From positions 62,001 through 126,000 of the forward strand of contig JBAIAA010000313.1 of assembly GCA_037893245.1 (NCBI GenBank): a stretch of 64,000 nt of DNA. Direction: 5' to 3'. The DNA is from Crossaster papposus (taxonomy: Eukaryota > Echinodermata > Asteroidea > Velatida > Solasteridae). The notes below the pieces were generated by a model. It saw nothing but the letters and a program-made list of their open reading frames with translations, did no database searches and was not told the DNA's origin. Positions 1 to 43,533 of this stretch are shown one piece after another. Position numbers and translations under genes: made by a program. Position 1 is the first letter of the stretch. Every line of letters starts with the position of its first letter.

Positions 1-2224
1 ATGTTGTGTGAAAAGCACTATCTAGCCAGAGACTAACATCGTTGAAACTAAGTTCACATTATGGTCCACTTTCAAATTATTAGCCACTTCCGGTTTCGAC
101 CGGAAGGAAGGGTCACGGGATTTTACGCACACGAGACAAAATGAAGATCCTGGATTTAATATTATATCAATTCCCACAAACCTTAAGTTCCGATCATACG
201 TGGTGGATTTTTTATTAATTTTCAAACATTAAATCTATTGCACGTTTAAGATGACGTCAAGTGACCCATGATGACGTCATCACGACGCCTCTCCGCAAGG
301 CACGAGTGCACTATAGAGTATTTACGGAGGTTAAGTTTGATGAGAATACCAATTTGTTTTCTGTTAAAAGTACTTGTGCAAAAGTTCCCGTACATCTATT
401 ATATCGTATAATTCACGCGTAGTTCTGCGTTGCCGAAGGCACGTTTACCTACCTGCCGTAAGCGGCGCCCTTCCTCATGGCCTATGTTGATGACTCTCGT
501 GTTTCACATGTCACCGTACAAATGGATACCAGTGTCCCGCCTTCCGTTCTCTATTGTACAATGTATGGAGCGTACTGACATCGTACGTACAAGTACGCTC
601 AATACAATGTACACGTATACTTGCGCCGTGCAATCAAGGACATAAAACATGACATTTCAAGGGTGTCTCAGGGTATGTCCAAGTTCGCCTTTTGCTACAA
701 AACACAGGGAAGTTTGAGAAGTACTTTTATATTAACCTTTAGAGCAAAAAACAAGATTATATCGGTCAGGGTTAATTTTTTATGAATTTTTAAAGTAAAA
801 GAGGTATTTTCATTATAACTTCCGGTCTGGTGACGTCATATTTTTTTCTTTCCGTCAACCTGTTCCTATCATGAAGCTGATTATATACATCAGTTATAAA
901 GTGATTTGAACAAACTTCGCCACACACATCAACTGATTATTCATTTTAAACATTTTTCAACCTGCCGCTAGAGGGCGCTAAAACAATTTATGACGTCACC
1001 GGTCACTTTTTTGGAGAGCGCAGCCTAGCTAGAGACTAACATCGTTGAAAGTAAGTTCAAATCATTTTCCACTTTCAAATTATAAGCCACTTCCGGTTTG
1101 GACCGGAAGGAAGGGTCACGTGATTTTACGCACACGAGATAAAATGAAGATCCTTAATTATTTTATCGATTCCCACAAACTTCAAGTTACGGTCATTCGT
1201 GGTTGATTTTGTATTGATTTTCAAAGATTAAATTATTAAAACTTTAAGATGACGTCACATGTCACGTGATGACGTCATGATGACATCCGAGTTTTAGGCA
1301 CTAGCTCAGTATGAGTTCTGAGTATGTGCAAAGTTTCAATGACATTGAAGTCTGTTTAATGACAAAAGTGACCGCCAGAATGAAACGTGTACAAAGTCTA
1401 TGCGATTTATGGCACAAGAACAAGAAGAAGAAGAAACTAGAGATATGTCTGTTCAAGGAACAGAGCATATGGCTTTTTCGCATTTTTTTGTTGTATTGTT
1501 CATTACATTTATGATTTCATTTAATAAATTTCTTTACTTTAATTTTTTCAAAACTGCAAATTTTAAATTATTAATTGGATTATATCTCTCGCGGTTAATT
1601 TTCAGAAATGTTTAAAGGTTTTTTAATTGTAATTTCCGGTCTAGTGACGTCATATTATTTTGTTTTTATCCGCCAACTTGTTCCTAGAGGGCGTTATAAC
1701 AATTTATGACGTCACCGGTAACTTTGTTTGTAGAGTGCAGGCTACCTAGAGACTATCATCGTTGAAAGTAAATTCATATCATTTTCAACTTTCAAATTAT
1801 AAGGCACTTCCGGTTTGGACCGGAAGGAAGTGTCAGGTCTTTTTGCATGTAATACAAATTATGAAGACCATGATTAATCTATCAATTTCCTTAAAAATCT
1901 AAATCAGATCTCTTACAGTTGATTTTATATTGATTTTCAAAGAATAAATTTAGAAATATTTAGTTGCTTGTAATCTGACACTTGATGACGTCATTGTGAC
2001 GTAATTAACAGAAACTCGAGATCAGTCTTAACTTTGCTATCTGAAGCAAAAATCTGGATTATATCTATAGCGGTTGATTTTTAAGCGACTTTTTAAAGTT
2101 AAAGGATTTTGTATTGTAACTTCCAGTTTGGTGACGTCATAAATATTTCTCCTTCCCAATGTGGTCTAAGCATGAAGCTGATTATATACACCGGTTATAA
2201 AGTTATTTCAGCAAACTTCGCAAC

Positions 2225-2538
2225 CACTGACCTCTACACCTGGACGGATCATTGTCCATATTCTGCTGTGCTAACACTTGAAGTCGGCGCGAACTGGAAG
2301 TGCAACATGGCGGACCCGAGACGTCACTGCTGTGAGCCAATGAAATGTCCAGGTGTAGAGGTTAGTGGATTTACTCTGTACGTTTTGTATTTATAAACAT
2401 TACGTAATACGTATCGTACCAACACCTAGACATTTCATTGGCTCACAGAGTGACGTCGTGGGTCCGCCATGTTGCACTTCTCCGCATGCCGACTTCAAAA
2501 TAGAACAATGATGATCTGTCCATGTATAGAGGTCAGTG
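2225..2538. mobile_element. 314-bp palindromic MITE, copy 1 (hAT-like, 8-bp target duplication)
   Basis: The element begins CACTGACCTCTAC and ends with the inverse, ...AGAGGTCAGTG; its two halves are imperfect inverted repeats, including mirrored blocks with ATTTCATTGGCTCACAG. TTCGCAAC flanks both ends (2,217-2,224 and 2,539-2,546). Sister satellite monomers contain the uninterrupted site TTCGCAACACACATC. An 8-bp duplication is the known signature of hAT-type transposition. No transposase is encoded. The second copy is at 56,205-56,530. Confidence 0.85.
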
Positions 2539-4130
2539 TTCGCAACACACATCAACAGATTAATCATTTTAACCATTTTCAACCTGCCGCTAGAGGGCGC
2601 TATAACATGTTATGACGTCGCCGGAATTTTTTTGAAAAGTTTATTCTAGCCAGACAATAACATCCTTAAAAGTAAGTTCATATCATTTTTCACATTCAAA
2701 TTATAAGGCACTTCCGGTTTTGACCGGAAGGAAAGGTCACGTGATTTCACGCACAGGAGATAAAATGAAGATCCTGGATTATTCGATTAATTGCCACAAA
2801 ATTCAAGTTTCGGTCTTTTGCGGTTGATGTTTTATTGATTTTCCAAGATTAAATCAATTGCACCTTTAAGATAAGGTCACGTGGGCCAGATGACGTCTTC
2901 CTCGTGGTGTCTGTCGGCGAGACTGGAGTTCACTATTGGGTCCTCACCTGGGTCGAGTTTATGGAAATACGACTTTGTTTTTCCGTTAAAAGTGCTTTGA
3001 ATTGTGCAAGCAACGTTTACAAAGTCTACGGGGTTGGATTCTGCGTAGCCGAAAGCGTGTTTACCCACCTGTCGTACGCGGCGCCCTTCCTCATGGGCAA
3101 CTTGATGACGTCATCCTGTTTCACAGGTTGGCGGCTAGTGTCATCTTGGGTGAGCGTAAATGTGCTTGCACGAACGATGTCAGTGGTGATACATTCGCTC
3201 AATACATAATGCACTATCGGTGTATACGTACATGTACTAGCATGTATATTATACGTGTGGCACGCACACGTAAGGGGTCAATGCTTTTTGCACCTAGGCC
3301 AAAACGATTACATTTCAAGGGTGCCGCAGGGTATGTTCAAGTTCGTTTTTTGCCCCAAAACACAGGGAAGTTCGAGAACTACTTTTACATTAATCTTTAC
3401 AGCAAAAATCAAGATTGTATCTGTCAAGTTAAATTTTTTAGGAATTTTCAAAGGAAAAAGAGTCTATTCATTCTAACTTCCGGTCTGGTGACGTCATAAT
3501 TTTTTCTTCCCGTCAACTTGTTCCTAGCATGAAGCTGATTAAATACACCGGTTATAAAGTGATTTCAGCAAACTTCGCAACACACATCAACAGATTATTC
3601 ATTTTAACCATTATTCAAACTGCCGCTAGAGGGCGCTATAACATGTTATGACGTCACCAATTTTTTTTGGAAAAATATATTGTAGCCAGACACTAACATC
3701 GTTGAAAGTAAGTTCATATCATTTTTCACTTTCAAATTATGAGGCACTTCCGGTTTAGACCGGAAGGAAGGGTCACGTGATTTCACGCACGCGAGATAAA
3801 ATCAAGATCCTGGATTATTCTATCTATTGCCACAAAAATTAAGTTTCGGTCTTTTGCGGTTGATTTGTTATTGAATTTCAAAGATTAAATCAATAACACC
3901 TTTAAGATGACGTCACGTGACCCCTGATGACGTCACCATGACGTATTTCTGCGAGACACGAGTTCACTATGGGGTCTTCACCTGGGTTAAGTTTTATGTA
4001 AATACGACTTTGTTTTCGATTAAAAGTGACGGGCAGAAAAAACGTGTACAAAGTCTATGGGGTTTAGGTTACTAAAAGAAAAGAAAAAAAAAAGAAGAAG
4101 AAGAAAAAAAAAAATCAGAACAAAAACAAA

Positions 4131-4158
4131 GGCTTTTTCGCAAAATTGCGAAAAAGCC
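4131..4158. repeat. 28-bp perfect hairpin in A-rich DNA
   Basis: GGCTTTTTCGC is followed by an A/T loop and then GCGAAAAAGCC. It sits in A-rich sequence and is repeated as a cluster in the equivalent position of the next higher-order repeat (6,624-6,826). Confidence 0.8.
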
Positions 4159-6559
4159 AAAAACTAGAACTACGTCTGTTCGAGGAACAGAACATAGGGC
4201 TTTTTCGCATTCGCAATTTTTTTTTATTAAATATTTCAAAAATTGAACTTTTAAACCATCAAAACAATTTAAAATCATTGAAAACTAATTTAAGTTAATT
4301 TAAACAGAGTAAAATGAATTAAAACTGATTAAAACGATGACGTCACACGTTTGTGAACTTTTTGTGCAACTATCTATCACCTAACAACACAAAATGAGGT
4401 GTTATGTTAACACGATCCGTTTCTGAGATATGCCTTCAACGTCTAAAAACGTAATAATTCAAATATAATCGTAATATGGTGTAACATTTGTCAACCATGC
4501 CGCTAGAGGGCGCTATAACATTTTAAGAAGTCACCGTCAACTTGTTCGTTACTTACAACCTAGCCAGCGCCTAACATCGTTGAAAGTAAGTTAGCATCGT
4601 TTTCCACTTTTAAATTATAAGGCACTTCCGGTTTGGACCGGAAGGAAGTGTCAGGTCTTTTTGCATGTAATACAAATTATGAAGACCATGGATTAATCTA
4701 TCAATTTCCTTAAAAATCTAAATCAGATCTCTTACAGTTGATTTTATATTGATTTTCAAAGATTAAATTTAGAAATATTTGGTTGCTTGTAATCTGACAC
4801 TTGATGACGTCATTGTGACGTAATTAACAGAAACTCGAGATCAGTCTTAACTTTGCTATTTGAAGCAAAAATCTGGATATATCTATAGCGGTTGATTTTT
4901 AAGCGACTTTTTACAGTTTAAAGGATTTTTTATTGTAACTTCCGGTTTGGTGACGTCATAAATATTTCTCCTTCCCAATATGGTCTAAGCATGAAGCTGA
5001 TTATATACACCAGTTATAAAGTTATTTCAGCAAACTTCGCAACACACATCAACAGATTAATCATTTTAACCATTTTCAACCTGCCGCTAGAGGGCGCTAT
5101 AACATGTTATGACGTCGCCGGAATTTTTTTGAATAGTTTATTCTAGCCAGACAATAACATCGTTAAAAGTAAGTTCATATCAGTTTTTCACTTTCAAATT
5201 ATAAGGCACTTCCGGTTTTGACCGGAAGGAAGGGTCACGTGATTTCACGCACACGAGATAAAATGAAGATCCTGGATTATTCTATTAATTGCCACAAAAT
5301 TCAAGTTTCGGTCAATTGCGGTTGATGTTTTATTGATTTTTAAAGATAAAATCAATTGAACCTTTAAGATGACGTCACGTGACTCCTGATGACGTCATTA
5401 TGACGTCTGTCTGCGAGACACTAGTTCACTATTGGGTCTTCACCTGGGTCAGGTTTATGGGAATACGACTTTGTTTTTCCGTTAAAAGTGCTTTGAATTG
5501 TGCAAGCAACGTTTACAAAGTCTACGGGGTTGGATTCTGCGTAGCCGAAAGCGTGTTTACCTACCTGTCGTACGCGGCGCCCTTCCCCATGGGCAATTTG
5601 ATGACGTCATCCTGTTTCACAGGTTGGCGGCTAGTGTCCTCTTGGGTGAGCGTACATGTGCTTGCACCAACGATGTCAGTGGTGATACATTCGCTCAATA
5701 CATAATACACTATCAGTGTATACGTACATGTACTATCATGTATATTATACGGGTGCCATGCACACGTAAGGGGTCAATGCTTTTTGCACCTAGGCCAAAA
5801 CGATTACATTTCAAGGGTGCCGCAGGGTATGTTCAAGTTCGTTTTTTGCCCCAAAACACAGGGAAGTTCGAGAACTACTTTTACATTAACCTTTAGAGCA
5901 AAAATCAAGATTGTATCTGTCAGGTTTAATTGTTTAGGAATTTTCAAAGGAAAAGGAGTCTTTTCATTCTAACTTCCGGTCTGGTGACGTCATAATTTTT
6001 TCTTCCCGTCAACTTGTTCCTAGCATGAAGCTGATTAAATACACCGGTTATAAAGTGATTTCAGCAAACTTCGCCACACACATCAACAGATTATTCATTT
6101 TAACAATTTTTCAAACTGCCGCTAGAGGGCGCTATAACATGTTATGACGTCACCAATATTTGTTTTGAAAAATACATTGTAGCCAGACACTAACATCGTT
6201 GAAAGTAAGTTCATATCATTTTTCACTTTCAAATTATGAGGCACTTCCGGTTTAGACCGGAAGGAAGGGTCACGTGATTTCACGCACACGAGATAAAATT
6301 AAGATCCTGGATTATTCTATCTATTGCCACAAAAATTTAGTTTCGGTCTTTTGGGGTTGATTTGTTATTGAATTTCAAAGATTAAATCAATTACACCTTT
6401 AAGATGACGTCACGTGACCCCTGATGACGTCACCATGACGTATTTCTGCGAGACACGAGTTCACTATAGGGTCTTCACCTGGGTTAAGTTTTATGGAAAT
6501 ACGACTTTGTTTTCTGGTAAAAGTACTTGTGCAAAAAAACGTGCACAAAGTCTATGGGG

Positions 6560-6900
6560 TTTAGGTTACTAAAAGAAAAAAAAAAGAAGAAGAAGAAAAA
6601 AAAAAATCAGAACAAAAACAAAGGCTTTTTCGCAAATTTGCGAAAAAGCCAATAAAACAAACAGAAGAAAAAGAAAGGCTTTTTCGCTTTTAAGCGAAAA
6701 AGCCAAAAAAAAAAAAAAAAAAAAAAAAAAACTTTAACGAAAACAAAAGCTGTTTCGGCTGAAATGCCGAAACAGCTAAAAATCAGAACAGAAACAAAGG
6801 CTTTTTCGCAAAATTTGCGAAAAAGCCAAAAAAAATAAAAAAAAAGAAAAAGAAACTAGACATGTGTTTTTGGACAAACACAGAGCTGTTTCGGATGTCT
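6560..6900. repeat. Cluster of four hairpins in A-rich spacers, between satellites I and II
   Basis: Hairpins lie at about 6,624-6,651, 6,676-6,703, 6,748-6,776 and 6,798-6,826. Three have GGCTTTTTCGC-type arms and one has GCTGTTTCGGC arms. Loops and arms differ while pairing is kept, for example TTCGCAAA/TTTGCGAA versus TTCGCTTTT/AAGCGAA. Long A runs separate them. The following stretch (ACTAGACATGTGTTT...AACACAGAGC) forms another weak hairpin that recurs near 8,612 and 9,933. Confidence 0.75.
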
Positions 6901-9900
6901 AAGATGACTTTCATTATGTGTGTGCCAAGTCTAAAATCGATTGGATTTGCCAATTTTCCCAAGATATATAAGTTGAAAAATACGTGTACAAATCCTATAG
7001 GAAAAACTGCACCTTTAATGTGACGTCACATGACACCCGATGATGTCATCATGATGTCATCTTAATTTTCGTCTATAACACATTCTGGAATACTTGCATA
7101 CCAAGTTTGGCCCCAATCAGACATGTACTTCTAGAGATAGAGCATAATGAAAACTTACGGTCATCTGCTCAACCAAAACAATGCACGCACGCTTCAACAC
7201 GGGAAATGACCAAAAAAATCAGGTTTTTTTTTACAAAACCGAACGTATCTTTAAAACTAAATGAGCTGTACATTTCTGGTGAACGGTTTCTAAAAATAGA
7301 CACATTAAGCTTTTTTTAAATCTAACTCTCGATATCATGCTACCTTCAGGGGTCCCGCCAAATGTTAGGGAAGTGTGTGTTTCCAGCCACGTTTTCAATG
7401 GGACGCGATGACATTTCGCCCTTTTGGGTACACTTTTTTACGTTCAGCAGGTCGTATATCAATAACCGCTTGTCGTACAGACTCCTGGTGAACGGATTTG
7501 TGTAGCCGATTTCAATAGCTTTCCAGTGATATAAGACATAAATTGATTGGTTGTTTAGTTCGGCCGCCCATTCATAATAAAAAATAGTGTCCAATCACGC
7601 ATTTTCTACTTTGGTACCCGGCTGCTTGGTGACCTTTTGAATCACGCTAGGACTACTGCATTCTCCCCGTAGGTATGAAAACATACACACGTACATGTAC
7701 GTGCACACGTGCTGTTGATTTTACGATCGTGTATGTCAATGTTCATTTCTATCGCTTGTTGGTTTTACCACATTACAAATTAGCATGTATTTCTTTCTGT
7801 TTACTGCAGTGAATTAAACATGTTATAGCCTAATGCCTAACAAGAAGTCCAAGAGTAATTGTTCGACTCTGTACAAATGTACATGATGTACTACTTGTCG
7901 TTTAAACTCCCCTATAAATCGTAATGGAATAACCCACGTGGGGAGATTTCCATGGTCTATGCGCGCTGCGGGTGTTATTATAATTAGGAAGGTCAACTCT
8001 CCCTCAGGCTGCTGCTGCACACACAGAAACCAGAGCTTTTGCTCGAAATCAGGTTAAAGTTTTCATTATGGTCCTAAAATCTGCCCCTTTAATGTGACGT
8101 CACATGACCCACGATTACGTTATCCTGACGATTTTACCCTTGGCCCTCCTGGGTATGGTGGTCGAGGTGTGTGCTAAGTCTAAAGTCGATCGGATTTACC
8201 AAATTGTCAAATTCAATAGTCTGAAGACAAACGTGTACAAACCCTATGGGGAAATAAATTACACCTTTAACGTCACGTCACGTGACCTTGAATGACGCAA
8301 TCGTGCCGAATTTTGTCCAGGACTATCTGTGAGTGGTGTTCTAAGTATATGCTAAGTCTAAAGTCGATCGAATTCATTAAAGTGTCAAAGTCAACAGTTT
8401 GAAGAAAAACGTGTACAAAACCTATGGGGAAAATGTTACCTTTAACATGACGTCACGTGACCTTGAATGACGGAATTGCGACGAATTTCTTCTAGGACCG
8501 TCCTTGGGTGGTTGTCTAAATGTATGCCAAGTCTCAGGTCGATCGGATTTACCAAAGTGTCAAAGTGTATTGGCAGAAAAAACGTGACAAAAAAAAAAAA
8601 AAAAAAAAAAAAAGAAACTAGACATGTGTTTGTGGACAAACACAGAGCTGTTTCGGATGTCTAAGATAACTTTCATTATGTGTGTGCCAAGTCTGAAATC
8701 GATTGGATTTGTCAATTTTCCCAAGATATATAAGTTGAAAAATACGTGTACAAATCCTATGGGAAAAACTGCACCTTTAAAGTGACGTCACATGACACCC
8801 GATGATGTCACCATGATGTCATCTTAATTTTCGTCTATTACACATTCTGGAATACTTGCATACCAAGTTTGGCCCCAATCAGACATGTACTTCCAGAGAT
8901 AGAGGGTCCTAAAATCTGCCCCTTTAATGTGACGTCATTTGACCCACGATGACGTCATCCTGACGATTTCCCCCTTGGCCCTCCTGGGTATGGTGGTCGA
9001 GGTGTGTGCCAAGTCTGAAGTCGATCGGATTTACCAAATTGTCAAATTCAATAGTCCGAAGAAAAACGTGTACAAAACCTATGGAGAAAATTGAACCTTT
9101 AATGTGACGTCACATGACACCCGATGATGTCATAATTACGTCATCCTATTTTTTGTCTGTAACACATCCTCGAATACTTGCAAACCAAGTTTGACCCCAA
9201 CCGGACTTGTACTTTCAGAGTTAGACGGTCTTAAAAACTACACCTTTAATGTGACGTCACATGACCCCCGATGACGTCATCTTGATTATTTTGTTCTTGA
9301 CCCTCCTAAGCATGGTGGTCGAGGTCTGTGCTAAGTCTCAAGTCGATCGAATTGACAGAAGTGTCAAATTCAATATTTTGCAGAAAAACGTGTACAAAAC
9401 CTATGGAGAAAATTGAACCTTTAATGTGACGTCACATGACACCCGATGATGTCATAATTACGTCATCTTAATTTTCGTCTATAACACATCCTCGAATAAT
9501 TGCAAACCAAATTTGACCCCAATCGGACGTGTACTTCCAGAGATAGGGGGTCTTAAAAACTGCACCTTTTGTGTAACGTCACATGACCCACGATGACGTC
9601 ATCATGACGATTTTTCTCCTGGACCTCCTGGGGATGGTGGTCGAGGTGTGTGCTAAGTTTCAAGTCAATCGGATTCACCAAACTGTCAAATTAAATAGTC
9701 TGAAGAAAAACGTGTACAAAACCTATGGGGAAAAATTGCACCTTTAACGTGACGTCACGTGACCAAGAATTATGTAATCGCGACGAATTTGTTCTAGGAC
9801 CGTCCTTGGGTGGTTGTCTAAATGTATGCCAAGTCTCAAGTCGATCGGATTTACCAAAGTGTCAAAGTGTATTGGCAGAAAAAACGTGTACAAATCCTAT

Positions 9901-10781
9901 GGGAAAAAGTGACAAAAAAAAAAAAAAAAAAAAACTAGACATGTGTTTGTGAACAAACACAGAGCTGTTTCGATTGTCTAACGTTACTTTCAATATGTAT
10001 GTGTGGTGGTCTATATGTGTGCCAAGTCTGAATTCGATTGGATTTACACAAGTGTCAAAGATTATTAGTTGAGAAAAACGTGTACAAATCCTATGGGGAA
10101 AATTGAACCTTTAATGTGACGTCACATGACACCCGGTAATGTCATCATGATGTCATCTTAATTTTCGTCTATAACACATTCTGGAATACTTGCATACCAA
10201 GTTTGACCCCAATCAGACATGTACTTTCAGAGATAGAGGGTCCTAAAATCTGCCCCTTTAATGTGACGTCACATGACCCACGATGACGTCATCATGACGA
10301 TTTCCCCTTGGCCCTCATGGGTATGGTGGTCGAGGTGTGTGCTAAGTCTGAAGTCGATCTGATGTACCGAAGTGTCAAAGATATATTAGTTGAAAAAAAC
10401 GTGTTCAAATCCTATGGGAAAAACTGCACCTTTATTGTGACGTCACATGGCCCACGATGACGTCGTCATGACGTCATCTTAATTTTCGTCTATAAGACAC
10501 CCTGGAATACTTGAGTACCAAGTTTGGCCCCAACCGGACTTGTACTTTCAGAGTTAGAGGGTCTTAAAAACTACACCTTTAATGTGACGTCACATGACCC
10601 GCGATGACGTCATCTTGATTATTTTTTTCTTGGCCCTCCTAAGGATGGTGGTCGAGGTCTGTGCCAAGTCTCAAGTCGATCGAATTTACAGAAGTGTCCA
10701 ATTCAATATTTTGAAGAAAAACGTGTACAAAACCTATGGAGAAAATTGAACCTTTAATGTGACGTCACATGACACCCGATG
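6900..10781. repeat. Satellite II: alternating ~147-bp and ~175-bp CRE-containing units
   Basis: The core GTGACGTCACATGACxC recurs at about 8,931, 9,106, 9,250, 9,427, 9,575 and 9,749, and again from 10,111 to 10,759. Spacings alternate near 175 and 147 bp, so the true repeat is a dimer of about 323 bp. One unit carries a block with GGTGGTCGAGGTGTGTGC and AAACGTGTACAAAACCTATG; the other carries CTTGCATACCAAGTTTG. The AACGTGTACAAA...TATGGG block is shared with satellite I, so the two families are related. Confidence 0.85.
7143..8070. mobile_element. 928-bp DNA element inside satellite II
   Basis: The sequence interrupts a satellite unit that elsewhere reads straight through AGAGATAGAGGGTCCTAAAA. 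Its ends are inverted repeats, CATAATGAAAACTT and AAGTTTTCATTATG. No clear target duplication is seen and no transposase is encoded; the open frames inside (for example 7,346-7,594 on the - strand) show no recognisable domain. Probably a non-autonomous DNA transposon of unknown superfamily. Confidence 0.75.
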
Positions 10782-11262
10782 ATTGACAGCGCACTAGGGG
10801 CCACGCTTTTGAACGTGTCACCGACATCTATAATACGTGCACCAATAAGATGTGTTCATTTCCCAATGTCGGTGACTGAAAGTTTCATTTACATAACTCC
10901 CGTTCATGAATATTAAACGAGTCAGTTGTGCGAAATTGACAGCGCACAGGGGGGCCACGCTTTTGAACGTGTCACCGACATCTATAATACGTGCACCAAT
11001 AAGATGTGTTCATTTCCCAATGTCGGTGACCAAAAGTTGCATTTACATAACTCCCGTTCATAAATTTTAAACGAGTCAGTGGTGCGTGATTGACAGCGCA
11101 CTAGGGGCCACGCGTTTGAACATGTCATCGACGTCTATAAAACGTCCACCAATAAGATGTGTTCATTTCACAGTGTCGGTGACTGCAACTACATTAACAT
11201 AACTCCCGTTCATGAATATTAAACGAGTCAGTGGTGTGTAATAATTGACAGCGCACTAGGGG
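10782..11262. repeat. 154-bp tandem repeat, three full units and a partial one, upstream of C1q gene A
   Basis: Units start ATTGACAGCGCACTAGGGG at 10,782, 10,935, 11,089 and (partial) 11,244. Each full unit has a CTATAATAC or CTATAAAAC box, CCAATAAGATGTG (changed in one unit), a TGTCGGTGAC block and AAACGAGTCAGT. Block B keeps about one unit (37,817-37,966). The array abuts the C1q promoter, so the units may add regulatory sites; that role is inference. Confidence 0.85.
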
Positions 11263-11345
11263 CCAATCAGAAACCGGGCAACGTTCCTCAGTCACTGCTT
11301 AGGAAATCACTGGCAAGTTTTAAGGCAGGAGCGCGCGATTCATTC
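11263..11345 (+). promoter_or_regulatory. Predicted promoter of C1q gene A (CCAAT, TATA-like, initiator)
   Basis: CCAAT at 11,263-11,267 is 79 bp before an initiator match TCATTCC (A at 11,342). A TATA-like TTTTAAGG lies at 11,318-11,325, 24 bp before it. Block B has the same three elements at the same spacing (37,970, 38,025 and 38,049). The start site is predicted from motif geometry only. Confidence 0.5.
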
Positions 11346-11423
11346 CTCACAACGACCGCAACTTACTTCGCTTTCGACAGGACAGCCAGAGAGAGACCTG
11401 AACGCAAGAACGAAATTTACAAG
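11342..11423 (+). other. C1q gene A, non-coding exon 1
   Basis: The exon is bounded by the predicted start site and a strong donor, ACAAG|GTAAGG (GT at 11,424). It contains the purine-rich CAGCCAGAGAGAGACCTG. The equivalent exon in block B is 38,049-38,131 with the same donor. The 5' end is approximate. Confidence 0.6.
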
Positions 11424-12052
11424 GTAAGGTTATATGAAACAGGCTCTTTAAGTCTTGAGATGGAATTAATGTTTGTATTCCTTCTTGATTAGTGGTTCTT
11501 ACAAAAGTATGTTTTAAACAAAACTCTTGAATAGAGTAAGTTGTGTCGGATTATATTTTGACTCTCTGCCTAGCTGTCCATGTAAATGGTTGTAAAAGGC
11601 TGTTCACGTAAATAGGGTCCCCTATACATGTATACCCTCGGTACTGTGCTTGATGTTCAAGCTGTTCCACCATTCTTCTGACATGCTTTAATGAGCACAA
11701 ACAGCCTACCCCAGCATCCTACCAAGCATCTGTTACTGTTAGCATCCTGTCAAAATCTGCCGCGTATCCTATTCCAGAATCGCATACCTCAATGGTCCAC
11801 TGAACTCGGCACCATCCACAACCCATATGGTGTTACCGCAAACCTCCCATCCTATTGATTATTCCACCATGCAAACTCTTAAGTCTTATTTAAAACGGTA
11901 GGGGCAAAAGTTTGACTATATTGACGTACTATATTCCTTCTTTGCATCCACGGACTCGTCTTGTTTCCCCCCATTTTGTCACCATCTTTGTTACAACAAA
12001 TGACTTAAAGTGTTGTGATCAAAGATATTTGTTTTATTTGTATTATTTTTAG

Positions 12053-12120
12053 GTGACATTCAACTTCAGTCACTAAGATTTCTACTTCGGCTGAGCTCTG
12101 ACTAAGAACACTACTTCAAG
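12053..12120 (+). other. C1q gene A, non-coding exon 2
   Basis: The acceptor TTATTTTTAG ends at 12,052 and the donor TTCAAG|GTAGGC follows 12,120. The 68-nt exon has no ATG. Both junctions are preserved in block B (38,750-38,817), which supports it as real. Confidence 0.65.
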
Positions 12121-12991
12121 GTAGGCCTTACTGTATTAAAAACAAAAAACAAATACATGTAACGTTATATTTTTGAACATCGCCACAAAACCATTGACGT
12201 TAAGCTATAGCTGAACAATCAGGAAGACAAATTCTTAAATATTACCGTATTTACATATTACCGTTTTTCATTCAGGATATTATATCTTCCCCAGTTATTT
12301 TAACACTTGCCTTACATATTCTTATAACGACACTTTACTTTTGGTCCCCGGACATCGCCTAGCTCATATCTCAATATAAAAAATCGTAAAATTCGTTTCA
12401 CGGGGCGTTCGAAATTGAATAAAAAAAAAAAAAAATTGGGTGTTTTTTGTTGTTTGTTTTAACACTCTTGGTTATTTAAATAAAACAATTAACCATAACG
12501 TTTGATATTAAACAGAATAAAATGCAATGGCAACAGCGTCTAAATCTATTAAAATAAAAAAATAAAAAAATACCCAAAACCACACATTAAATTATGACGA
12601 ATCGCAATGCTCTAATTAAATTTATACTGCAACTTTAATAAAAATCCCTTTGTAATTTTTGAAATTGAGAATCAAGAATTGAGCTCGACGATGTTTACGG
12701 ACGAAATTAAAGCGCAGTTACAATTAATTTCTGGAGAAAATAAGAGGTGGGGTTGGCCCTACTTTATAGCTTGATTCAAAACCCGTACGAAACTCTCCCT
12801 CAAAAAAGTTGTTCTGTCAAATTTTGTTTTGCCGCTTAAAAAAAACCCGACCAAAACGAACATCTGAAGTTATTTTGTATGCGCTCTACCCAAGAACCTT
12901 TCAATTCATTATTTATATTTGTTGCTTCTTTTTTTCGTTTAATAAAATTAGTCCCTTTTGTGATTTATATTGTCTACTTTTGGTATTTAGA

Positions 12992-13822
12992 ATGAAGATC
13001 TTGGTGACAACCGTTCTTTCAATCGCCCTCCTTCTGGGTAACTCTGTCAAGCTCCGAGCTTCCGTCACTGGGCCGGTTGCCTCGGACGGTGATGTTCCAG
13101 CGTCTCGGGTGTGTCCGATGTGCTGCCAGGGACCTTCTGCCACAAATGGTATACCAGGTTTACCTGGTCAGGTCGGACCCTACGGCCAGCCGGGGTCAAA
13201 GGGCGACGCAGGTCAGCCGGGTCAAAATGGCGATATCGGGCCGATCGGTCCAAGGGGTGAGCGAGGAGCACTTGGGAACGCTGGGCCTAAAGGTGACGAT
13301 GGGATAGGCCAGCCCGGCAAGATAGGTCCGAAAGGTCTGCAGGGTGTAGTCGGAAGTCCTGGTCAGACTGGTGTCAAAGGTCAGAAGGGTGAGCCAGGGG
13401 AGACACCAGACGACTCCAACCAGCGGGTAGCATTCACCGCGGTGAGGACGAGCACCTCTGATACCTCTACGAGTCACGACACCCGTTTGCCCTTCCAGCA
13501 GACCGAGACGCTTCTGCCGGATACCAGCTTTGATCTCGGGACCGGCACGTTCACTTGTACTGTGCCGGGCACCTACGTGTTTACGTTTTCTGTGAACAAA
13601 TTACCTTCCAGCAGCCACCTGCACGTTCATCTCCGGAAGAACGACGACTATGTTGTCACTGGCTGGAGCAATGATGCAAGTCACTATGAGCAGGTGTCTG
13701 GGAGCGCGGTGCTGGTTCTGCAGCGAGAAGACACGGTGGGGCTTACCATGTACGGTAGGGTGTATAGTCATTCCACCTATCACTACACCTCATTTAGTGG
13801 CTTCCTCCTTTACCCCGAATAA
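12992..13822 (+). CDS. Secreted collagen-like C1q-domain protein, copy A (276 aa)
   Basis: The chosen start is the ATG right after the acceptor GGTATTTAG|A (exon from 12,991). The frame is open upstream to 12,809 but that part is intron. Residues 1 to about 24 form a signal peptide (hydrophobic core LSIALLLG). A CPMCC cluster at 41-45 is suited to inter-chain disulfides. Residues 53-138 are Gly-X-Y collagen repeats with one break (GDD-GI-GQP near 104). Residues 145-276 are a C1q/TNF-like head with VAFTA, the FTCTVPGTYVFTFS core and the C-terminal FSGFLLYPE. Members of this family trimerise, are secreted and act as pattern-recognition or adhesion lectins. The intact frame and clean splice sites suggest a working gene. 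Ligand and tissue cannot be read from the sequence. It is 26.6 kb from its close paralogue at 39,561-40,394. Confidence 0.95.
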   Translation: MKILVTTVLSIALLLGNSVKLRASVTGPVASDGDVPASRVCPMCCQGPSATNGIPGLPGQVGPYGQPGSKGDAGQPGQNGDIGPIGPRGERGALGNAGPKGDDGIGQPGKIGPKGLQGVVGSPGQTGVKGQKGEPGETPDDSNQRVAFTAVRTSTSDTSTSHDTRLPFQQTETLLPDTSFDLGTGTFTCTVPGTYVFTFSVNKLPSSSHLHVHLRKNDDYVVTGWSNDASHYEQVSGSAVLVLQREDTVGLTMYGRVYSHSTYHYTSFSGFLLYPE

Positions 13823-13823
13823 A
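13818..13823 (+). other. Polyadenylation signal overlapping the stop codon of C1q gene A
   Basis: AATAAA includes the stop codon TAA (13,820-13,822), as part of GAATAAATAAT. If used, the 3' UTR would be only about 15-30 nt long. Other candidates lie further on (AATAAA near 14,082). Confidence 0.5.
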
Positions 13824-15742
13824 TAATTGCTGAAACAGTAGTCGTATTAAAAAGGGATAATATTCAATGTCATAATAATTAATATTTGTTTAGCGTCTTA
13901 CATTAGGGTTTCAAAACACATTACAAACAGACATAAAAACTACATGAAAAACAATTAATCAAAAGTAATATTTTAATAGAACTTGTTTTGGGTTGCGTGT
14001 GTTTTTTTTAATTCACACTCGATATTTGTCACAATAGCTGAAATACATTTGGTGTTTAATTCTATACTGTTTTAATAAGGGAATAAATGTGTGTTCGGTC
14101 GGTTTTAATCACTGTTTAATACCGCTTGGAGTCTGGGTGCTGATAATTACCCGAGCCGAAGGCGAGGGTAATTATCAGCACCCAGACTTCAAGCGGTATT
14201 AAACAGAGTGATTAATACCGACCGAACACACATTTATTCCCATTCATAAATACCTTTTTTGTAAAATTCAGCCATAAAAGCCCCGAAAATCACGGAAAAT
14301 TGTCGCAAGTAAATTTTAGTGTTTCGCCATTCTGTGTGTGTCAAATGACATGTTTCCGCCTCTGTCGCTCTACACAATACATGCAATAAAGCGTATTTAC
14401 TAGGAACCAGACTATTACTGCTATTGGCAACCAAGTTTTCAGGGTGTCAAGCTGTACGCGCCCAACACCACCCTACTATTGGAGACGATGTACGGTGGAA
14501 ATAAAGTGAGCCCTGGGGACGGTGTTTCCAGCTGGGTTTAAACACTTCCAGCCATGTCTTTATCGTCCGTTTAATACCGGCCACGTGACGGGCTCTCGAC
14601 CAATAGGAATGCCTAAACTGTCCCAGGTATTTATGAATACGATTTAATGCAGTTAATTAGTTGTACAATGTACTATCGATGTACTAATAAATATCTTACT
14701 TACTTGAAAGAAAATAATGAATCTAGGCATCCATCAAAATGATTATGGTAGATATCGTGTAATATTGTAACGAACAAATTAATTTTGTATAAACAAATTC
14801 ACAATCGCCCGCTGGCGAATGCGAAAAAAACCCAAGAACAACATAAGAATAACTGCCCGACGTCGGTTGAAAAAGAATGCCGTTTTTCTTGCTTTTCTCG
14901 GCATCCAATCCATGATTGCAAAACTTCGAACAGGTCAGTTAAGATTGTAAAACTTCGAACAGGTCAGTTAAACGATATTTACTATAAAATACAACCCCTC
15001 CAAATTCACCCATTCATGATAATTTAAGCAATGTATCCTACCTTTAAATGTTCATACATGTCCGCTGTACTACTACTGGCATTTAAACATATCGTTACTG
15101 AATAAACATATTTACCCATTTTATGTTGTTTCAAACGTATTTTATACTCTTTTCAATATTCATTTTTAATAAAATGTTCATATACTTTAAAGCTCAGTGC
15201 AGCTTAACTCGAGGTCCAAGGTTCAAACCCAGCTAGAGTGAATAAATACAAAATTGAATTTTGTGCTTCAATTAATTGCCAATTTTTAAGCATTTAATAG
15301 CATCTGTATGAATAACAAATTAAGGTAGAATATTAGCATTTGCTCCATTTGGTATGAATTAAAAGAAGTAAATGCTTCAGATTTGCAGTGCTTACTCAAT
15401 TTTTTTTTAAGGTTGGGTCGGGGCTACCTTGAAAAAGCGAAGCAAATACTAGTATGCAAACTACAAATTTTTAAGTGTGGTTAGGCAGAAAAAAGTATGA
15501 ACATAGAAGATGGAGTGTCTAGGATCGGAATACAAGCAGGTGTACCTGTTAGCATACGAGCATGTTCACTGTGTGTGGCTATACATGTACGTGCACATGA
15601 TAGACTCTATTGTTATAACCATTCGGCTGTGCAATTCACTGCAAGTATAAAGCATTTGAAACTTTGTCAGAATTCTAGGATTTCTAGGATTTTAAGTATA
15701 AGCATCATGACCTCTCGGTTTCCACTTCACTCTAAACTTCTC
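13823..15742. other. Spacer between convergent genes, block A
   Basis: Apart from the foldback insertion at 14,075-14,640 this stretch matches block B (40,395-41,521), with small indels near 15,470-15,640. The open frames here (for example 14,785-15,027) are not conserved as protein. I see no gene. Confidence 0.6.
14075..14640. mobile_element. About 565-bp foldback-type insertion present only in block A
   Basis: Block A reads CTGTTTTAATA, then this insert, then GATTTAATGCAG. Block B reads CTGTTTTAATACAATTTAATGCAG with no insert. The insert opens with a near-perfect hairpin: arms 14,079-14,152 and 14,166-14,241, loop about 13 nt. A second inverted pair, ATTCATAAATACC (about 14,242) and GGTATTTATGAAT (about 14,628), brackets the rest. 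No protein is encoded. Confidence 0.75.
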
Positions 15743-15942
15743 TCACGGCATGTCATAGTCCCACTCTCCCTTCAGTATCATGCTAGCTGCCATGTGGCCG
15801 ATCTCATCCGAGGACTTGGCCCCGACCCCGTTACCGCCAACGAGCACGCCAAGCCCAGGGCCGACCATGTCGCAGTAGAGTAGCCGTGTAGGTGTGGTAG
15901 TAGTCACGCAAGTATCGGTGTGAATGGAAAGTGGCTTCAGAT
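15743..15942 (-). other. Oxidoreductase copy A, last exon, ends early
   Basis: The acceptor CCGTTGCAG precedes 15,942. The exon reads LKPLSIHTDTC and GVGAKSSDEIGHMAA, then hits TGA at 15,745-15,743 where copy B has AGA and continues. Upstream of the acceptor the two blocks agree only to 15,994. Confidence 0.75.
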
Positions 15943-16380
15943 CTGCAACGGTAATAACAAGTGTTGCATCTTTTTCAATTTAATATTCAGAGGCAATCAC
16001 GGCAACTTGATGAAAGGGCGACAACAAAATAAGACGAACATTTTTGAATGGATGCTTCGTTCCATTTGAATAGGCTGCCACTTCACTGGATATTCTTGTA
16101 ACAAATTTGTGATTGACTTTTGTTTTATCCCACTGTTTTATAAAAACTTCCGATAGTAATTATCGACTAGTTTTGTGAAGACGGCGCTCAATATAACGGG
16201 GCACTACGATTCCTCGCATTCAATATATACAGTTTTATTCTATAAATTACACCTACGACGCGTCAATGTGTTTTGTGAAAAAACTCACACAACGTGTCGC
16301 AGCTGCGACGCATCATATGGATACGACGCGCAATGCATCATAAAATCGATTGCTATAGTCACATCTAGATTTTCTAAATT

Positions 16381-16660
16381 GGGTGCTGTGGCCTCGTGGT
16401 CTGGAGCATTGAATTTGTGGTCTGCGGGTAAATCTGCAGGTTGTGGGTTCGAGTCCAGCCTGGGGTTGTTGTCACTCATTGCTTCTCTCAACCCTGGAGT
16501 AAAATGGGTACCTGTGATGGCAGAGATGGTTTCTGGGATTGATTTATTGCTGCTTTGCGGTGAAATGGCTGCATCGAGCTGTATACTCCCCAGGAAGCAC
16601 AGATGGTATTTGGAATGTTTCGTGGGCCCAATGAGCAGGGGTAATAATATTAATAGTGAC
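16381..16660 (+). mobile_element. tRNA-derived SINE, copy 1
   Basis: The head has a Pol III A-box-like TGGCCTCGTGGTCTGGAGC and a B box GGTTCGAGTCC, as in tRNA genes. The body is shared with two other copies on the - strand (18,306-18,573 and 44,125-44,390), including GCTGTATACTCCCCAGG and AGATGGTATTTGGAATGTT. Length about 270-280 bp. Confidence 0.8.
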
Positions 16661-17034
16661 ACAAGCGGCAGTATTGTTGGATACGTCACTTTATAAATAT
16701 TATTATTGTTATCTATACTGTAGTTTTTACACAGTAATAAGATCGATGGAGTCCAACGGATCACCTACCAGGAATTATGCCTTGTAGGCACTGCAGGAGT
16801 CTATCTGACGTTGGTTGATCACCATGACCAAAGGACCAGGCCTTTATTTGCTCCTTAGTTGTCAAATCTTTCTCACCCACTTTATCGTGACCTATTTTCA
16901 GGTTCCACTTACCTACAAAACATATGGGGAAAGAAACCAAATTTAGCTACATGTATTCAATAGGAATAGTATGGTGTTTTCAGTGGGACTAACAAATGTT
17001 CATCTGACTCCAAGCACAAGTTCTCCTCTCGCTC

Positions 17035-17200
17035 GGTTGCAGCAAGTGAGTTAGGGGAGACTTGGGTTTGAGTCACCAAACATTGAGTCTGAGTCAGAAT
17101 TAGAGTCCCAGTCACCACTGTCGAGTCTTGAGTGCGAGTCCTGAATCGAACAGGTAGAGTCCGAGTCTGAGTCGTAGGTCAAATGGTCGAGTCTGAGCAA
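17035..17200. repeat. GAGTC-type short tandem repeat, block A
   Basis: Degenerate GAGTC/GAGTCCGAGTCT repeats, like those just inside the ends of the hAT-like element at 42,042-43,121. It may be a remnant of the same element family. Confidence 0.6.
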
Positions 17201-17633
17201 TATTTATTGGTATTTGCCAGAGATTAATTTAGTAAGAATTCAGTAAGAATTGAGAATCCAAATTCAGTAAGAATCGAAGCTCATTATCACAAAAATTGCA
17301 CATTCATAGCTCCATGCCTATTCCCATTTTGCAATCTATAAGTTGGTTGCGCACAAACATTACCGTTGTGATTTTGAATTTACGAGGCGGGATTCAGACA
17401 TATACACGTCATGCATATCATTTGCATATCTCAGGAGGGATGTCTCCTGAGGTACGCAAGATTCGCTGCGTGTTACTGGACACAATTATGAAGTCTAGGA
17501 ACCAGACTAGGCTAGACATGGGAGGAGTGCATGTGTTTACTCATAAAGATGTGTCAAAATCCACCTAGATTATTTAATGGCCTGTTTTCTTAATGATTAC
17601 ATTCATTAGGCACATATACATGGCAATATTTAC

Positions 17634-18222
17634 TGTTTGGGTACTGAATCGGTGGCAAAATGTAGCAGTTTTGTCCTAAGTCCGTTTCTCCCTCATAGAC
17701 CTGTAAGGAAGGCATGCCACGGAGCCTGTCCCTGTCCCTGTCATCTCCTGCCAACTCCAGAATCACCACGACTTGAGACTTCGCCGTTACATCAAGTTGC
17801 AACCCAGCGGGTAGTAGGTCTCCCACAGCAGTTGAGGCCCCAGTGCAGAGCAAGACTTACTTAGCATTGAAAGTCCTGCCGGCATCGGTAAAGAGTGTAA
17901 ATACGCTGATGGATGGATTGTGTGATAGATCGTCGACGACATCGTCGTCGTCAGATATTCTGCATCCTTGGCGCTGAGCCAAGGTCTGCTGGGCGAGAAG
18001 GAGCTCAGATGTCTTGTGCCAGTCGCTTGGAAGATGTCCACAGTGCCCGTGCCCGTTGCTTGGGTTATTTTTTTCAACGGACATAAAGTTAAACCATTCC
18101 AGCAGTTTTGTTTGATCGAGGACTTCGACACTGATCCCTGTCTGGTTGGCACCATCGAGTAGCTTACGGCCGAGGGAACCATCGTGTGCAGTCAGCCACA
18201 ACACCCCTGTAAAAATGTACCC
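17634..18222 (-). other. Oxidoreductase copy A, exon 3 with frameshift and stop
   Basis: The acceptor TTTTCTCTGTAG precedes 18,222 and the donor AACA|GTAAAT follows 17,634. It encodes LWLTAHDGSL, then TGISVEVLD, VLLCTGAS, GDLLPAGLQLDVTAKSQVVV and RGMPSLQVYEG. Compared with copy B, 8 bp are missing near the start, and a TAA interrupts between NAK and VLLCTG. Confidence 0.75.
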
Positions 18223-18305
18223 CTACAGAGAAAATGACAGGTATCCAACTATTTAAGGTGTCATGCAATGTCAAGGGCTGTTAACTGGTTCCCAGTCATT
18301 TTTTA

Positions 18306-18573
18306 CTCGATCATAATAATAGCGGGTACTTGTACAGTGTAACATTCCAAATACCATCTCAGCTCCCTGGGGAGTATACAGCATGATGCTGCCATTTCGG
18401 CGCAAAGAAGCTATTTCAATGGCCATCTCTGCCCTCACAGGTACCCATTTACGCCTGGGGAGAAGCAATGAGGCACACGCACAACCCCAGATTGGACTTG
18501 AACCCACAACCTGCAGAATTACCAGCAGACCACGAATTAAATGCTCCTGGCCCCGAGGCCACTCCACAGCCCT
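18306..18573 (-). mobile_element. tRNA-derived SINE, copy 2
   Basis: Same SINE as 16,381-16,660, reversed, in the intron between oxidoreductase exons 2 and 3. Block B carries it at the same place (44,125-44,390), so it predates the block duplication. Confidence 0.8.
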
Positions 18574-18979
18574 AAATAAGTGGTCTTCTACAATTGAAAC
18601 TCTGATATGAGATTTTTTCAGATGACTAACATTTTTGAGAAAAATTGACAAAAAACAACACAGTCCTACCTATTCCTTTGTATTTGTGTAGTTGTGAAAA
18701 TGTCCAAATACTCACTTTTCTCACTTCCAGAAACTTGTTTTAAACTCAAATTTTGATTCTGGGCTTCTCAAGAGGGCCTCTTCATTAAAAAAATAAATAA
18801 ATCCTAACCCCATTTTGTCTCTAAAGATCTTGCAAAAATGGCAAAACAGACTTTGGGCGTGCGCAAGTCTACAATCTGTAACCTCTTCCCGCATCCTGTG
18901 GACGTCAATGGTTCACAGGTTCATAGTACGCATGAAATATCTGCACATGCATTCACTTGTGCGTGCATTTCTCTCTTAC

Positions 18980-19086
18980 CTGTCATTCGTTCGATATCAC
19001 TGAACCTTTGAGCTGCTCGTCTGCCATGTTCTTCCTATCTGCTGATTCCACTAAATACTCGTCCCTCATCATAATGAGCACCGAAG
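18980..19086 (-). other. Oxidoreductase copy A, exon 2 with an in-frame stop
   Basis: Acceptor ATTGCCAG|C and donor ACAG|GTAAGAG give phases matching exons 1 and 3. Reads FGAHYDEGRVFSGISR, then TAG, where copy B has nine more bases and no stop. Confidence 0.75.
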
Positions 19087-23261: not shown

Positions 23262-24760
23262 TTAAGAACAATATTTTTCCAAAAGCAGAAGTTTAAGTTT
23301 TTTCTTAAATAAAAGACGACTACGAATACTTCTTAGAGTTTGACTTAGTGAATTCCAATATGTTGTACCCTGATAAATGACAAATTTCTTTGCAAGAGCA
23401 GTACGTATAAAAGGAACATTGAAATCTTTAAACTGTCTGGTATGATATTGATGAATAACTGCATTAGTCACAAACATTCGTTCAAATGAATTAGGTAATT
23501 TATGAGCTACAAGCTAATGCATAAACATTCCTAGCTGGAGTGAATACATATCATTAATTTTAAGAGTATTGTGATTAAAAAACAATGGATTAGAATGAGC
23601 TCTAAATTCCACACGGTCAATAACACGCAATGCCCTTTTCTGCAAAACCAAAAACCCAGGCCAGAATACCGTAGGAGATATAAGGCAAAATTAACGCATT
23701 ATAAATATTATACAAAATATGAGAGGGAAACAAATATTTCAATTTGTTAATAATACCAATATTTCTTGAAATTAATTTACATAGATAATTTACATGACAT
23801 TTCCATGATAATTGTTCATCAATAAAAAGACCAAGAAATTTAGTACAGTTGGTTTGATTAACAGGATAATTATCGTACAAAATATCAGTAGGAATTGAAC
23901 TGGCTGTATTGCTAAACAACATAAAACAGGTTTTATCAATGTTGAGGGATAATTTGTTGGCTTTAATCCATTTAGAAACACCAATGAGTTCTGTATTAAT
24001 GACGTTAACCAGTGTACCCAAATTGTTATGCGAGTAAAATAATTTGGAGTCATCTGCAAATAAAATAAATGACAAGGTACCAGAAGATTTCTCAAAATCG
24101 TTAATATATATTGAAAAAAGAAGTGGTCCCAAAATGGATCCCGGGGGAACTCCACAAACCAACTCTTTAGGTGAAGACTGGTTATCATTGAAAAGTACAA
24201 ATTGTTTACGATTAATGAGATAATTTCTGAACCACTCCAAGGCAATCCCTCTAATTCCATAAAAGGAAAGTTTAGCCAAAAGTATATCATGGTCTATTGT
24301 ATCGAATGCCTTGTAAAGGTCCAGAAAAATTCCCAAAGTATGAGAAGACTGTTCATGACCAGTAATAATAGTATTTATCAATTGTAAAATAGCATGAGAT
24401 GTTGAATGGTTCTCCCTAAACCCATACTGCGAATCAGATAAAATATTATGTTTGGTTAAAAACCGAGACGTGCGAACGTAAATAATACGTTCAAGAATTT
24501 TAGAAAAGGTTGTCAGAATGGAAATAGGTCTATAATTATTAACTAAATGGGAATCACCTTTTTTTTTACGGAAACAACTTTAGCAATTTTCAGGGAATCG
24601 GGAACTATACCTGTACTTAATGACAAATTCACAATGAAAGCAAGAGGCTTGGAAATGGCGAGAAAAACAGCTTTGATAACAGTACTAGTAATCGTATCAT
24701 GACCAGAACTTTGCTTATTAGTTAATTTAAAAACAATAGTATATAGTAATAAACAATTAC
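23262..24760 (-). pseudogene. LINE 1 of the insertion: RT fragment, CR1/L2-like
   Basis: The frame at 24,381-23,617 has RT motifs FLDLYKAFDTIDHD, GIRGIALEWF, GVPPGSILGPLLFSIYIND (the usual GVPQG has become GVPPG) and the catalytic FADD in SFILFADDSKLF. The end of the protein (YWNSLSQTLRSIRS) follows in another frame at 23,477-23,262. The N-terminal endonuclease is missing, so this copy is 5'-truncated and frameshifted. Confidence 0.85.
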
Positions 24761-24870
24761 ACTTACAGGAGATCAGGCCAAATAATAAATTAATTAATTA
24801 CGATCATTGAGCAAGTTAAGTTTGATTTTGTTTCTAAAAATATGAAGAGAACAAGACTGCTTGACATCCG

Positions 24871-32940: not shown

Positions 32941-33014
32941 GGCAAGACAGCTCCGCAGTTGGTAGAGCGCCGGACCAGAATTCTGGAGGTCGCAGGTTCG
33001 AGTCCTGCCTTGCC
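32941..33014 (+). tRNA. tRNA-like sequence or tRNA pseudogene
   Basis: The acceptor stem GGCAAG/CTTGCC pairs, the D arm reads GCTC...GAGC, the anticodon stem CCGGA/TCTGG pairs with one G-T, and the T arm GCAGG-TTCGAGT-CCTGC is perfect. The anticodon loop is CCAGAAT: position 33 is C, not the near-universal T, and the nominal AGA anticodon does not fit a short variable loop. It could be a pseudogene or a SINE head. Confidence 0.5.
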
Positions 33015-43121: not shown

Positions 43122-43149
43122 TTAGTCGCATATACATGGCAATATTTAC

Positions 43150-43500: not shown

Positions 43501-43533
43501 ATACAGAGAAGAATGACAGGTAACCAACTATTC

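Follow-up and report, generated by a model that had tools for sequence, protein, structure and literature searches.

Helentrons and their non-autonomous relatives, the HINEs, carry a 12–15-bp palindromic motif near the 5' terminus and the inverse of this motif 38–60 bp from the 3' terminus, with a palindrome 8–35 bp from it, and HINEs insert at TT without duplicating the target (PMC4067079). The same source reports a Drosophila Helentron whose gene is in minus orientation, and mentions DINE-1-like elements of the sea urchin. HINEs that house satellite-like repeats are known from the oyster and other bivalves (PMC7492417), and satellites derived from Helitrons with unequal numbers of ends have been reviewed (PMC12628747). 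Here we analyze a 64-kb stretch of the genome of the sea star Crossaster papposus (C313:62001-126000, hereafter the window, from an assembly of 1.02 Gb in 1,841 contigs), the first 10,781 bases of which belong to a repeat array rich in the octamer TGACGTCA. Our analysis indicates, with high confidence, that the array consists of two subfamilies of non-autonomous Helentron-type rolling-circle transposons (HINEs) arranged head to tail, a reading that is well supported. Both subfamilies run in one orientation. Subfamily A is built of alternating 147- and 175-bp monomers, and subfamily B of a ~2.45-kb repeat with a ~1,035-bp sub-unit.

The evidence for transposition comes from the edges of the family at other loci, 12 left and 12 right ones being examined. 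Ten of the 12 left edges start with ACTAGA, each preceded by A, and half of the right edges (6/12) finish in a hairpin. Six insertions, picked for having both ends, measure 1,067–3,353 bp and are all preceded by A and followed by AA; L031 belongs to subfamily B and the other five to subfamily A. Three of them (L027, L029 and L031) are single units with one left end and one right hairpin each. The left end is a short hairpin adjoining a 10–11-nt motif, AGCTGTTTCGG in A and GGCTTTTTCGC in B, and the right end is a perfect hairpin whose arm is the subfamily's own left-end motif. Thus, the end string differs between A and B, yet matches at both ends within each, which looks like a pair of matched recognition sites. 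When one right hairpin per type was folded and compared with shuffled sequences, z-scores of -7.3 (A) and -6.4 (B) were obtained, and the left ends gave a moderate value for A (z -2.4) and one that is not significant for B (z -1.3).

The geometry of these ends agrees with that of HINEs. On the reverse strand the five delimited A insertions read T|TAGCTGTTTCGGC...GCCGAAACAGCT with a 12-bp stem, which provides the palindromic end motif. The inverse motif is present as well: CCGAAACAGCTC lies ~29–40 nt from the terminus, with the arms of the hairpin stopping 8 nt from it, which corresponds to the lower limit of the published values. Moreover, an empty site could be identified for the 2,987-bp block L030 on C1, whose joined flanks match seven places on C1333 over the full 240-base query with 99% identity. 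Two of these empty sites were aligned; both lack an A at the junction and carry a substitution at a distance of 115 bases. The block shows no target duplication beyond this one A and is inserted in an A run (A|A, corresponding to TT on the opposite strand). The single empty site and the A|...|AA flanks of all six delimited insertions therefore agree with the TT target without target duplication of HINEs. The L030 flank is itself a tandem repeat, with a period of ~916 bp on C1:1062158-1111797 and of ~5.8–6.2 kb on C1333:19651-55142, and the empty sites are therefore paralogous and not allelic.

The arrays furthermore appear to be linked to Helentrons, both by co-oriented genes and by a recurrent junction. 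Of 273 candidate places for the Helitron_like_N profile, the best 150 were scored. Fourteen top-scoring Rep matches, which we provisionally take to be canonical Helitrons, were set apart by eye from the 136 others, many of which lie in open frames of more than 3,000 aa. At C510, two frames on the + strand, located between array pieces, contain OTU, PHD, DUF6570, Helitron_like_N, PIF1 and Exo_endo_phos domains (Pfam), that is, the Rep/helicase with C-terminal endonuclease and the OTU protease of a Helentron gene; the locus was scanned in three pieces, and a stop separates the Rep from the helicase frame. The junction between array and leader that precedes this gene recurs at 24 loci, C185 included, 18 of which cover at least 327 of the 401 query bases, the remaining matches of the junction query being the array part only or second pieces. 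Nine junction loci have a Rep within 60 kb; in five of them it lies 9.3–12.0 kb downstream on the same strand and in one at 19.5 kb. When the 136 Reps were set against the array, junction and B places listed from outside the window (102 in all), 23 pairs were found within 60 kb (1.6 expected at random), a number weakened by the fact that the pairs involve 19 different Reps and are not all independent, and that the places are best matches and not a random sample. In 22 of the 23 pairs both members are on the same strand, in one on opposite strands.

The 14 top-scoring Rep matches, in contrast, form no pair with an array place within 60 kb. A canonical Helitron, with 5' TC, 3' CTRR and insertion between A and T, was considered for the family and rejected, since neither the A|A target nor the terminal hairpin agrees with it and these pairs are absent.

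The family is present on many contigs of the assembly. For the A segment 9001-9330 (330 bp), the best 40 of 1,306 candidates, its own place included, show 99–100% identity over 328–330 bp and are distributed over many contigs. For a 401-bp B segment, all 40 scored places (its own included; 1,886 candidates) are 99–100% identical. Exact genome matches number 7,334 for a 35-base core pattern (reversed control, 0) and 9,798 for the left-end 30-mer (control, 0), and the right hairpin with free loop has 6,101 matches (control, 0). Restricting the hairpin to one loop variant reduces this to 1,353 matches; a 7-to-1 ratio of left to right ends, which came from that variant, was dropped once the looser pattern had been applied. 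Among the matches listed, many array places sit deep within megabase contigs, clustered places are mostly co-oriented (exceptions being found near C3:1760000 and C17:1173000 and as inverted pieces in C185), and right hairpins often occur in groups of 2–7. This clustering of the hairpins suggests that array units frequently lack a right end or share one. The preliminary description of this DNA had named a satellite region and had proposed a search for other arrays in the genome as a check. That search found thousands of copies of the family, and the near-identical copies on many contigs together with the number of core matches led us to reject a local satellite. We also noted that on C18:103000-202600 (~100 kb) co-oriented array places surround one Helentron-type Rep match (at 179869), and both left ends and right-end hairpins are numerous; this region is possibly a very large composite element.

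Several observations weigh against the assignment to HINEs and against the link to Helentrons. Two of the 12 left edges, six of the 12 right edges and the right edge of the home array lack an element end. Of the six delimited insertions, only half are single units, the others being blocks (L028 has two left ends, L030 and C263 have three each), which slightly lowers our confidence. Regarding the partner genes, the Rep located within 60 kb of nine junction loci is upstream in two cases (by 15 and 29 kb) and on the opposite strand in a third. For 15 of the 24 junction loci none of the 150 scored Reps lies within 60 kb (13 are on contigs with none of the 150, two have theirs farther away), and the same scored set contains none within 60 kb of the home array. 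The sequence between the gene and the downstream array is not common to C510 and C81, and the similar 15-kb spacing at the two loci is therefore a coincidence; an element that reaches a fixed 15 kb past the Rep gene, derived from these loci, was refuted by this sequence comparison. Among the loci read, none could be delimited as an autonomous copy with both ends and the gene inside. Finally, there is a conflict of polarity: the left end would be the 3' end according to the hairpin geometry and the 5' end according to the direction of nearby genes.

The home array has a sharp right border at 10781/10782 and extends to the left beyond the window, since the 30 kb upstream (C313:32001-62000) are filled with the same repeats and hold 140 further TGACGTCA. 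Between C313:32001 and window position 10781 there are 40,781 bases, 39,543 of which match array sequence of other loci on the + strand; this coverage is interrupted for at least 100 bases at two places only, 2228-2538 and 7143-8069. These 40.8 kb contain 185 TGACGTCA, 24 left ends and 22 right hairpins, and the array is at least 40.8 kb long, with its left limit beyond the sequence examined. The preliminary description spoke of a 10.8-kb satellite region. Its right border and the tandem look have been retained, whereas its left limit was merely the edge of the window and its origin is to be sought in a transposon array and not in a local satellite. The part of the array within the window consists of:

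1-1434, + strand: right part of a B-type unit that starts upstream of the window; resembles other B units and contains two ETS-like pairs, one CTCF-like core and six TGACGTCA
1435-4158, + strand: B-type HINE unit, recognized by end patterns and repeat alignment; left end 1435-1481, right-end hairpin 4131-4158
4162-6650, + strand: B-type HINE unit, head to tail with the preceding unit; left end 4162-4208, right-end hairpin 6623-6650
6623-6827, + strand: four right-end hairpins with A-tracts between them, of B type at 6623-6650, 6677-6704 and 6799-6827 and of A type at 6749-6776
6854-8588, + strand: A-type unit with its left end at 6854-6893, A repeats as far as 7142 and A monomers at 8070-8588
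8616-9913, + strand: A-type unit with its left end at 8616-8655, in which 147-bp and 175-bp monomers alternate; an A-tract follows at 9914-9934
9933-10781, + strand: A-type unit, truncated rightward by the gene block; left end 9933/9934, off the exact pattern

The segment from -979 to 1452 is 99.6% identical to C185 over 2,435 bp, and the B unit at 4162-6650 shares 94–96% identity with units at -16.0, -13.6 and -3.7 kb. Nested in the B unit at 1435-4158 is an inverted-repeat insert of ~310 bp (2228-2538, arms 2220-2252 and 2511-2543), which has TTCGCAAC on each side, an 8-bp duplication, and which we presume to be hAT-like. Its inner arms hold another TGACGTC and a YY1-like string. The second gap, 7143-8069, located inside an A-type unit, shows no similarity to the compared array sequences and contains zero TGACGTCA.

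In the whole window TGACGTCA occurs 46 times, 45 copies being at 252-10760 and one at 55132, whereas in 100 dinucleotide shuffles of the window it averaged 0.88 occurrences and never exceeded 3. The stretch 1-10781 also contains eight paired ETS-like sites, CTTCCGG(N6)CCGGAAG, and six CTCF-like cores, CCGCTAGAGGGCGC, all on the + strand; a degenerate form of the latter gave no further match within the 64-kb window. CACGTG is present 15 times in 1-10781, two of these in a non-repeat stretch, and 10 more times elsewhere in the window. These strings resemble sites for ETS, CTCF, CREB/ATF and USF/MYC factors. The counts agree with the preliminary description, which had reported about 45 exact octamers where fewer than one is expected by chance, along with paired ETS sites, CACGTG E-boxes and a CTCF-like core. 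It had also raised the possibility that the motifs are hitchhikers of repeat amplification, and for TGACGTCA this is the main answer: the octamer sits, as do the ETS-like, E-box and CTCF-like sites, in the internal repeats of a transposon that has thousands of copies, and its amplification explains most of the TGACGTCA excess.

Conservation of the motifs was analyzed for each subfamily. For A, 263 of 348 matches to monomer a were long enough (240 distinct), as were 118 of 122 matches to monomer b (90 distinct). Box 1 of TGACGTCA differs by 7.2% among the 240 sequences of monomer a (rank 17 of 165 alignment windows) and by 2.2% among the 90 of monomer b (rank 3 of 139), and box 2 of monomer b differs by 13.7% (rank 130 of 139). 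The best-kept block of monomer a is AAACGTGTACAAA, the top 8-mer of which is only 0.6% different. Recent changes were counted in nearest-neighbour pairs, 178 for a and 58 for b, from which neighbours more than 8% apart and reciprocal repeats had been excluded. By this measure TGACGTCA is ordinary in monomer a (39 changes versus a mean of 42.8 per alignment window), and in monomer b box 1 is spared (3 versus 10.1) and box 2 is not (14). CpG sites change 2.2 times (a) and 3.6 times (b) faster than others, and most of these changes are transitions (135/190 and 26/39), which suggests some methylation.

For B, eight copies could be aligned over more than 1,000 bp. In these 1.6-kb copies there are four changes in 125 motif columns versus 455 in 1,493 other columns. 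Six young copies outside the window, three of them from the home array, show 4/717 changes in motif columns (0.56%) versus 294/7,975 in the spacer (3.7%), a ~6.6-fold lower rate in a test whose motif positions were fixed on two window copies and restricted to columns where those agree. Only one of 1,624 slid masks was equally low. When whole 8-mers are counted the contrast becomes smaller, 11 of 23 motif 8-mers being unchanged versus 380 of 1,144 others. More diverged copies are represented by a B module, for which 36 of 43 matches were kept, resulting in 31 distinct rows; 26 distinct rows remain of the 30 outside the window, four being duplicates. Across the 31 modules, whose mean difference is 11.4%, the top three non-overlapping 10-mers are ETS-like (0.3%), CTCF-like (1.0%) and again ETS-like (1.3%). 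The pooled motif set differs by 7.7% versus 12.1%, which is not significant (40 of 453 slides are as low). In the 26 outside rows, CTTCCGG is at rank 1 of 448, and a rank of 18 was obtained both for CCGGAAG (of 448) and for the CTCF-like core (of 441); CACGTG ranks 185 and 263 of 449, and the three TGACGTCA rank 180, 377 and 251 of 447.

Selection on the motifs is called into question by TGACGTCA, which differs by 13.4% across the 31 diverged modules and is unprotected in most conservation tests. The motif list was drawn from the window itself, which may leave some ascertainment bias even in the tests confined to outside copies, and ETS and CTCF were singled out after the data had been seen. 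The idea that motif cores are kept better than spacers, as stated in the preliminary description, has thus to be narrowed: it applies to the ETS-like pair and the CTCF-like core of B, to the pooled motifs of young B copies and to the first of the two TGACGTCA boxes of A monomer b, and not to TGACGTCA overall. To judge from these alignments, the ETS-like pair and the CTCF-like core of B look to be under constraint, and TGACGTCA would mostly be carried along.

We propose that the Rep/helicase/endonuclease encoded by the co-oriented Helentron genes nicks the hairpin ends. Rolling-circle copying would follow, and then insertion at A/T-rich sites. Head-to-tail arrays could arise through repeated insertion, or through read-through at ends flanked by A-tracts. 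With less certainty, the ETS-like and CTCF-like sites of B may have been kept because copies that retain them spread better; host factors drawn to the sites might, for example, hold the copies open in the germ line. In its widest form, the proposal would be that the family carries ordered and selectively kept sites for ubiquitous host factors (ETS-like pair, CTCF-like core, cyclic-AMP response element (CRE) and E-box) as part of its life cycle, and has sown thousands of clusters of them, some tens of kb long. We put this forward tentatively and consider it rather doubtful.

The same transposons could instead use the motifs as DNA shape, with dyads that aid strand opening or binding of Rep and that do not serve as sites for host factors. 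This is a serious possibility, if somewhat short of an even chance. It would account for the top-conserved block of the main A monomer, AAACGTGTACAAA, which is not recognizable as a factor site, and it fits element ends that are defined by hairpins; the fact that the ETS-like half site is the best-kept 7-mer of B (rank 1 of 448), and that its partner and the CTCF-like core both reach rank 18 (of 448 and 441, respectively), argues in the other direction.

The dense and ordered arrangement of the palindromic sites might also point to a host regulatory array, an enhancer, an insulator or a sink for CREB/ATF, that is under host selection upstream of a C1q-collagen gene. The features between the array and the coding domains of this gene are:

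10782-11265, + strand: 154-bp unit present three times, outside the array, found by Tandem Repeats Finder (TRF); immediately precedes what we infer to be the first exon of the C1q-collagen gene
11266-13822, + strand: start of the C1q-collagen gene; a CAAG|GTAAGG donor common to the paralogue suggests exon 1, and the open frame 12770-13822 contains C1q and collagen domains

That the repeats stop ~0.5 kb short of the inferred first exon, and that motif columns of B vary so much less than the spacer in the six outside copies (0.56% versus 3.7%), would suit such a function. Nevertheless, we regard it as improbable, and what is left of the regulatory reading is the tentative idea, given above, about the ETS-like and CTCF-like sites of B. 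The block 10802-19085, which includes the gene, recurs at 37818-44988 in collinear pieces that are mostly 87–97% identical, with gaps between them, and this paralogue has a single 154-bp-type unit at 37818-37969 and no array upstream. The array thus adjoins the promoter block without belonging to what the two copies have in common. Moreover, the family occurs on many contigs in thousands of copies, and TGACGTCA lacks general protection. Least probable of all, a very remote prospect in our view, is a classical centromeric or heterochromatic satellite amplified through unequal exchange without transposition: the head-to-tail units and the higher-order periods of 2.45 kb and 322 bp resemble one, but the many places deep in megabase contigs, the recurrent ends of the insertions together with one empty site, and the 99–100% identity across contigs speak against it. 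For the insertion with the empty site, a satellite origin is already refuted; later growth of existing arrays through unequal exchange may have occurred.

Other features of the window lie outside the array. A 53-bp tandem repeat with ~40 copies and 86% matches extends over 57016-59127, and several open frames run across it. Two regions on the - strand, 23617-27844 and 48558-51673, look like remnants of long interspersed nuclear elements (LINEs) and have reverse transcriptase domains at 23617-24579 and 49800-50876. A match to the tRNA model of Rfam at 32941-33015 (35.4 bits) was the only one at gathering level in the window, in which ARAGORN called no tRNA. Elsewhere in the assembly, stop-free COX1 matches were found on C8, a contig of more than 5 Mb, at 2872001-2873343 and 5208663-5210009; C8 may be a bacterial chromosome within the assembly. 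The mitochondrial COX1 has no stop under genetic codes 5, 9 or 13, and code 9 (AAA as Asn, ATA as Ile) brings back invariant residues, which suggests an echinoderm or possibly a hemichordate.

A striking array of transcription-factor sites can thus arise by amplification of a transposon. In this genome, copies in their thousands can be compared according to whether each site has been retained, which offers a way to ask whether a transposon needs sites for host factors in order to spread. Should the ETS-like and CTCF-like sites indeed bind factors, the family would represent a large natural experiment on the ways in which mobile DNA alters regulation and the folding of chromosomes in an echinoderm.

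With the Tsp elements of the sea urchin, reportedly described by Cohen et al. in 1985 (as cited in PMC4067079), the family shares that a DINE-1-like element resides in an echinoderm, the two being likened by description only. Published HINEs, such as DINE-1 of Drosophila and HINE-Mo of a mite, have in common with the family the matched palindromic end motifs, a short hairpin near one end and a TT or T-rich target without duplication, as well as tandem repeats in some copies and a copy number that exceeds that of the Helentron partner (PMC4067079). Unlike in the HINEs covered by that source, the units form a head-to-tail array of at least 40 kb, they contain ordered ETS-, CTCF-, CRE- and E-box-like sites, and the direction of the gene opposes the prediction from the geometry of the ends. 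Cg_HINE with its Cg170 repeat in the Pacific oyster and Pearl (~160 bp) in bivalves likewise have satellite-like repeats inside dispersed non-autonomous Helentrons; here, in contrast, the host is an echinoderm, repeats of 147 and 175 bp alternate, a second subfamily has a 2.45-kb internal unit, and there is a transcription-factor-like payload, none being noted for Cg_HINE or Pearl in the available text (PMC7492417). In one collection of open-access papers we found no report that combines a Helitron or Helentron with TGACGTCA or with a CTCF and ETS payload, nor one of this echinoderm case. In plants, Helitrons arranged in tandem (Xiong et al., 2016, as cited in PMC12628747) also form head-to-tail rolling-circle arrays with unequal numbers of ends. 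Many of these combine several 5' ends with only one 3' end, whereas exact patterns give 9,798 left and 6,101 right ends here, the latter often clustered. Finally, DINE-1-like elements of Drosophila miranda supply sites for the MSL complex and are, like the present family, Helentron-type elements that disperse host-factor sites; there binding has been reported, whereas here the sites are known as motifs and from their conservation alone (PMC4067079). Within this set of systems, the family is a member of the HINEs whose payload and array length are unusual.

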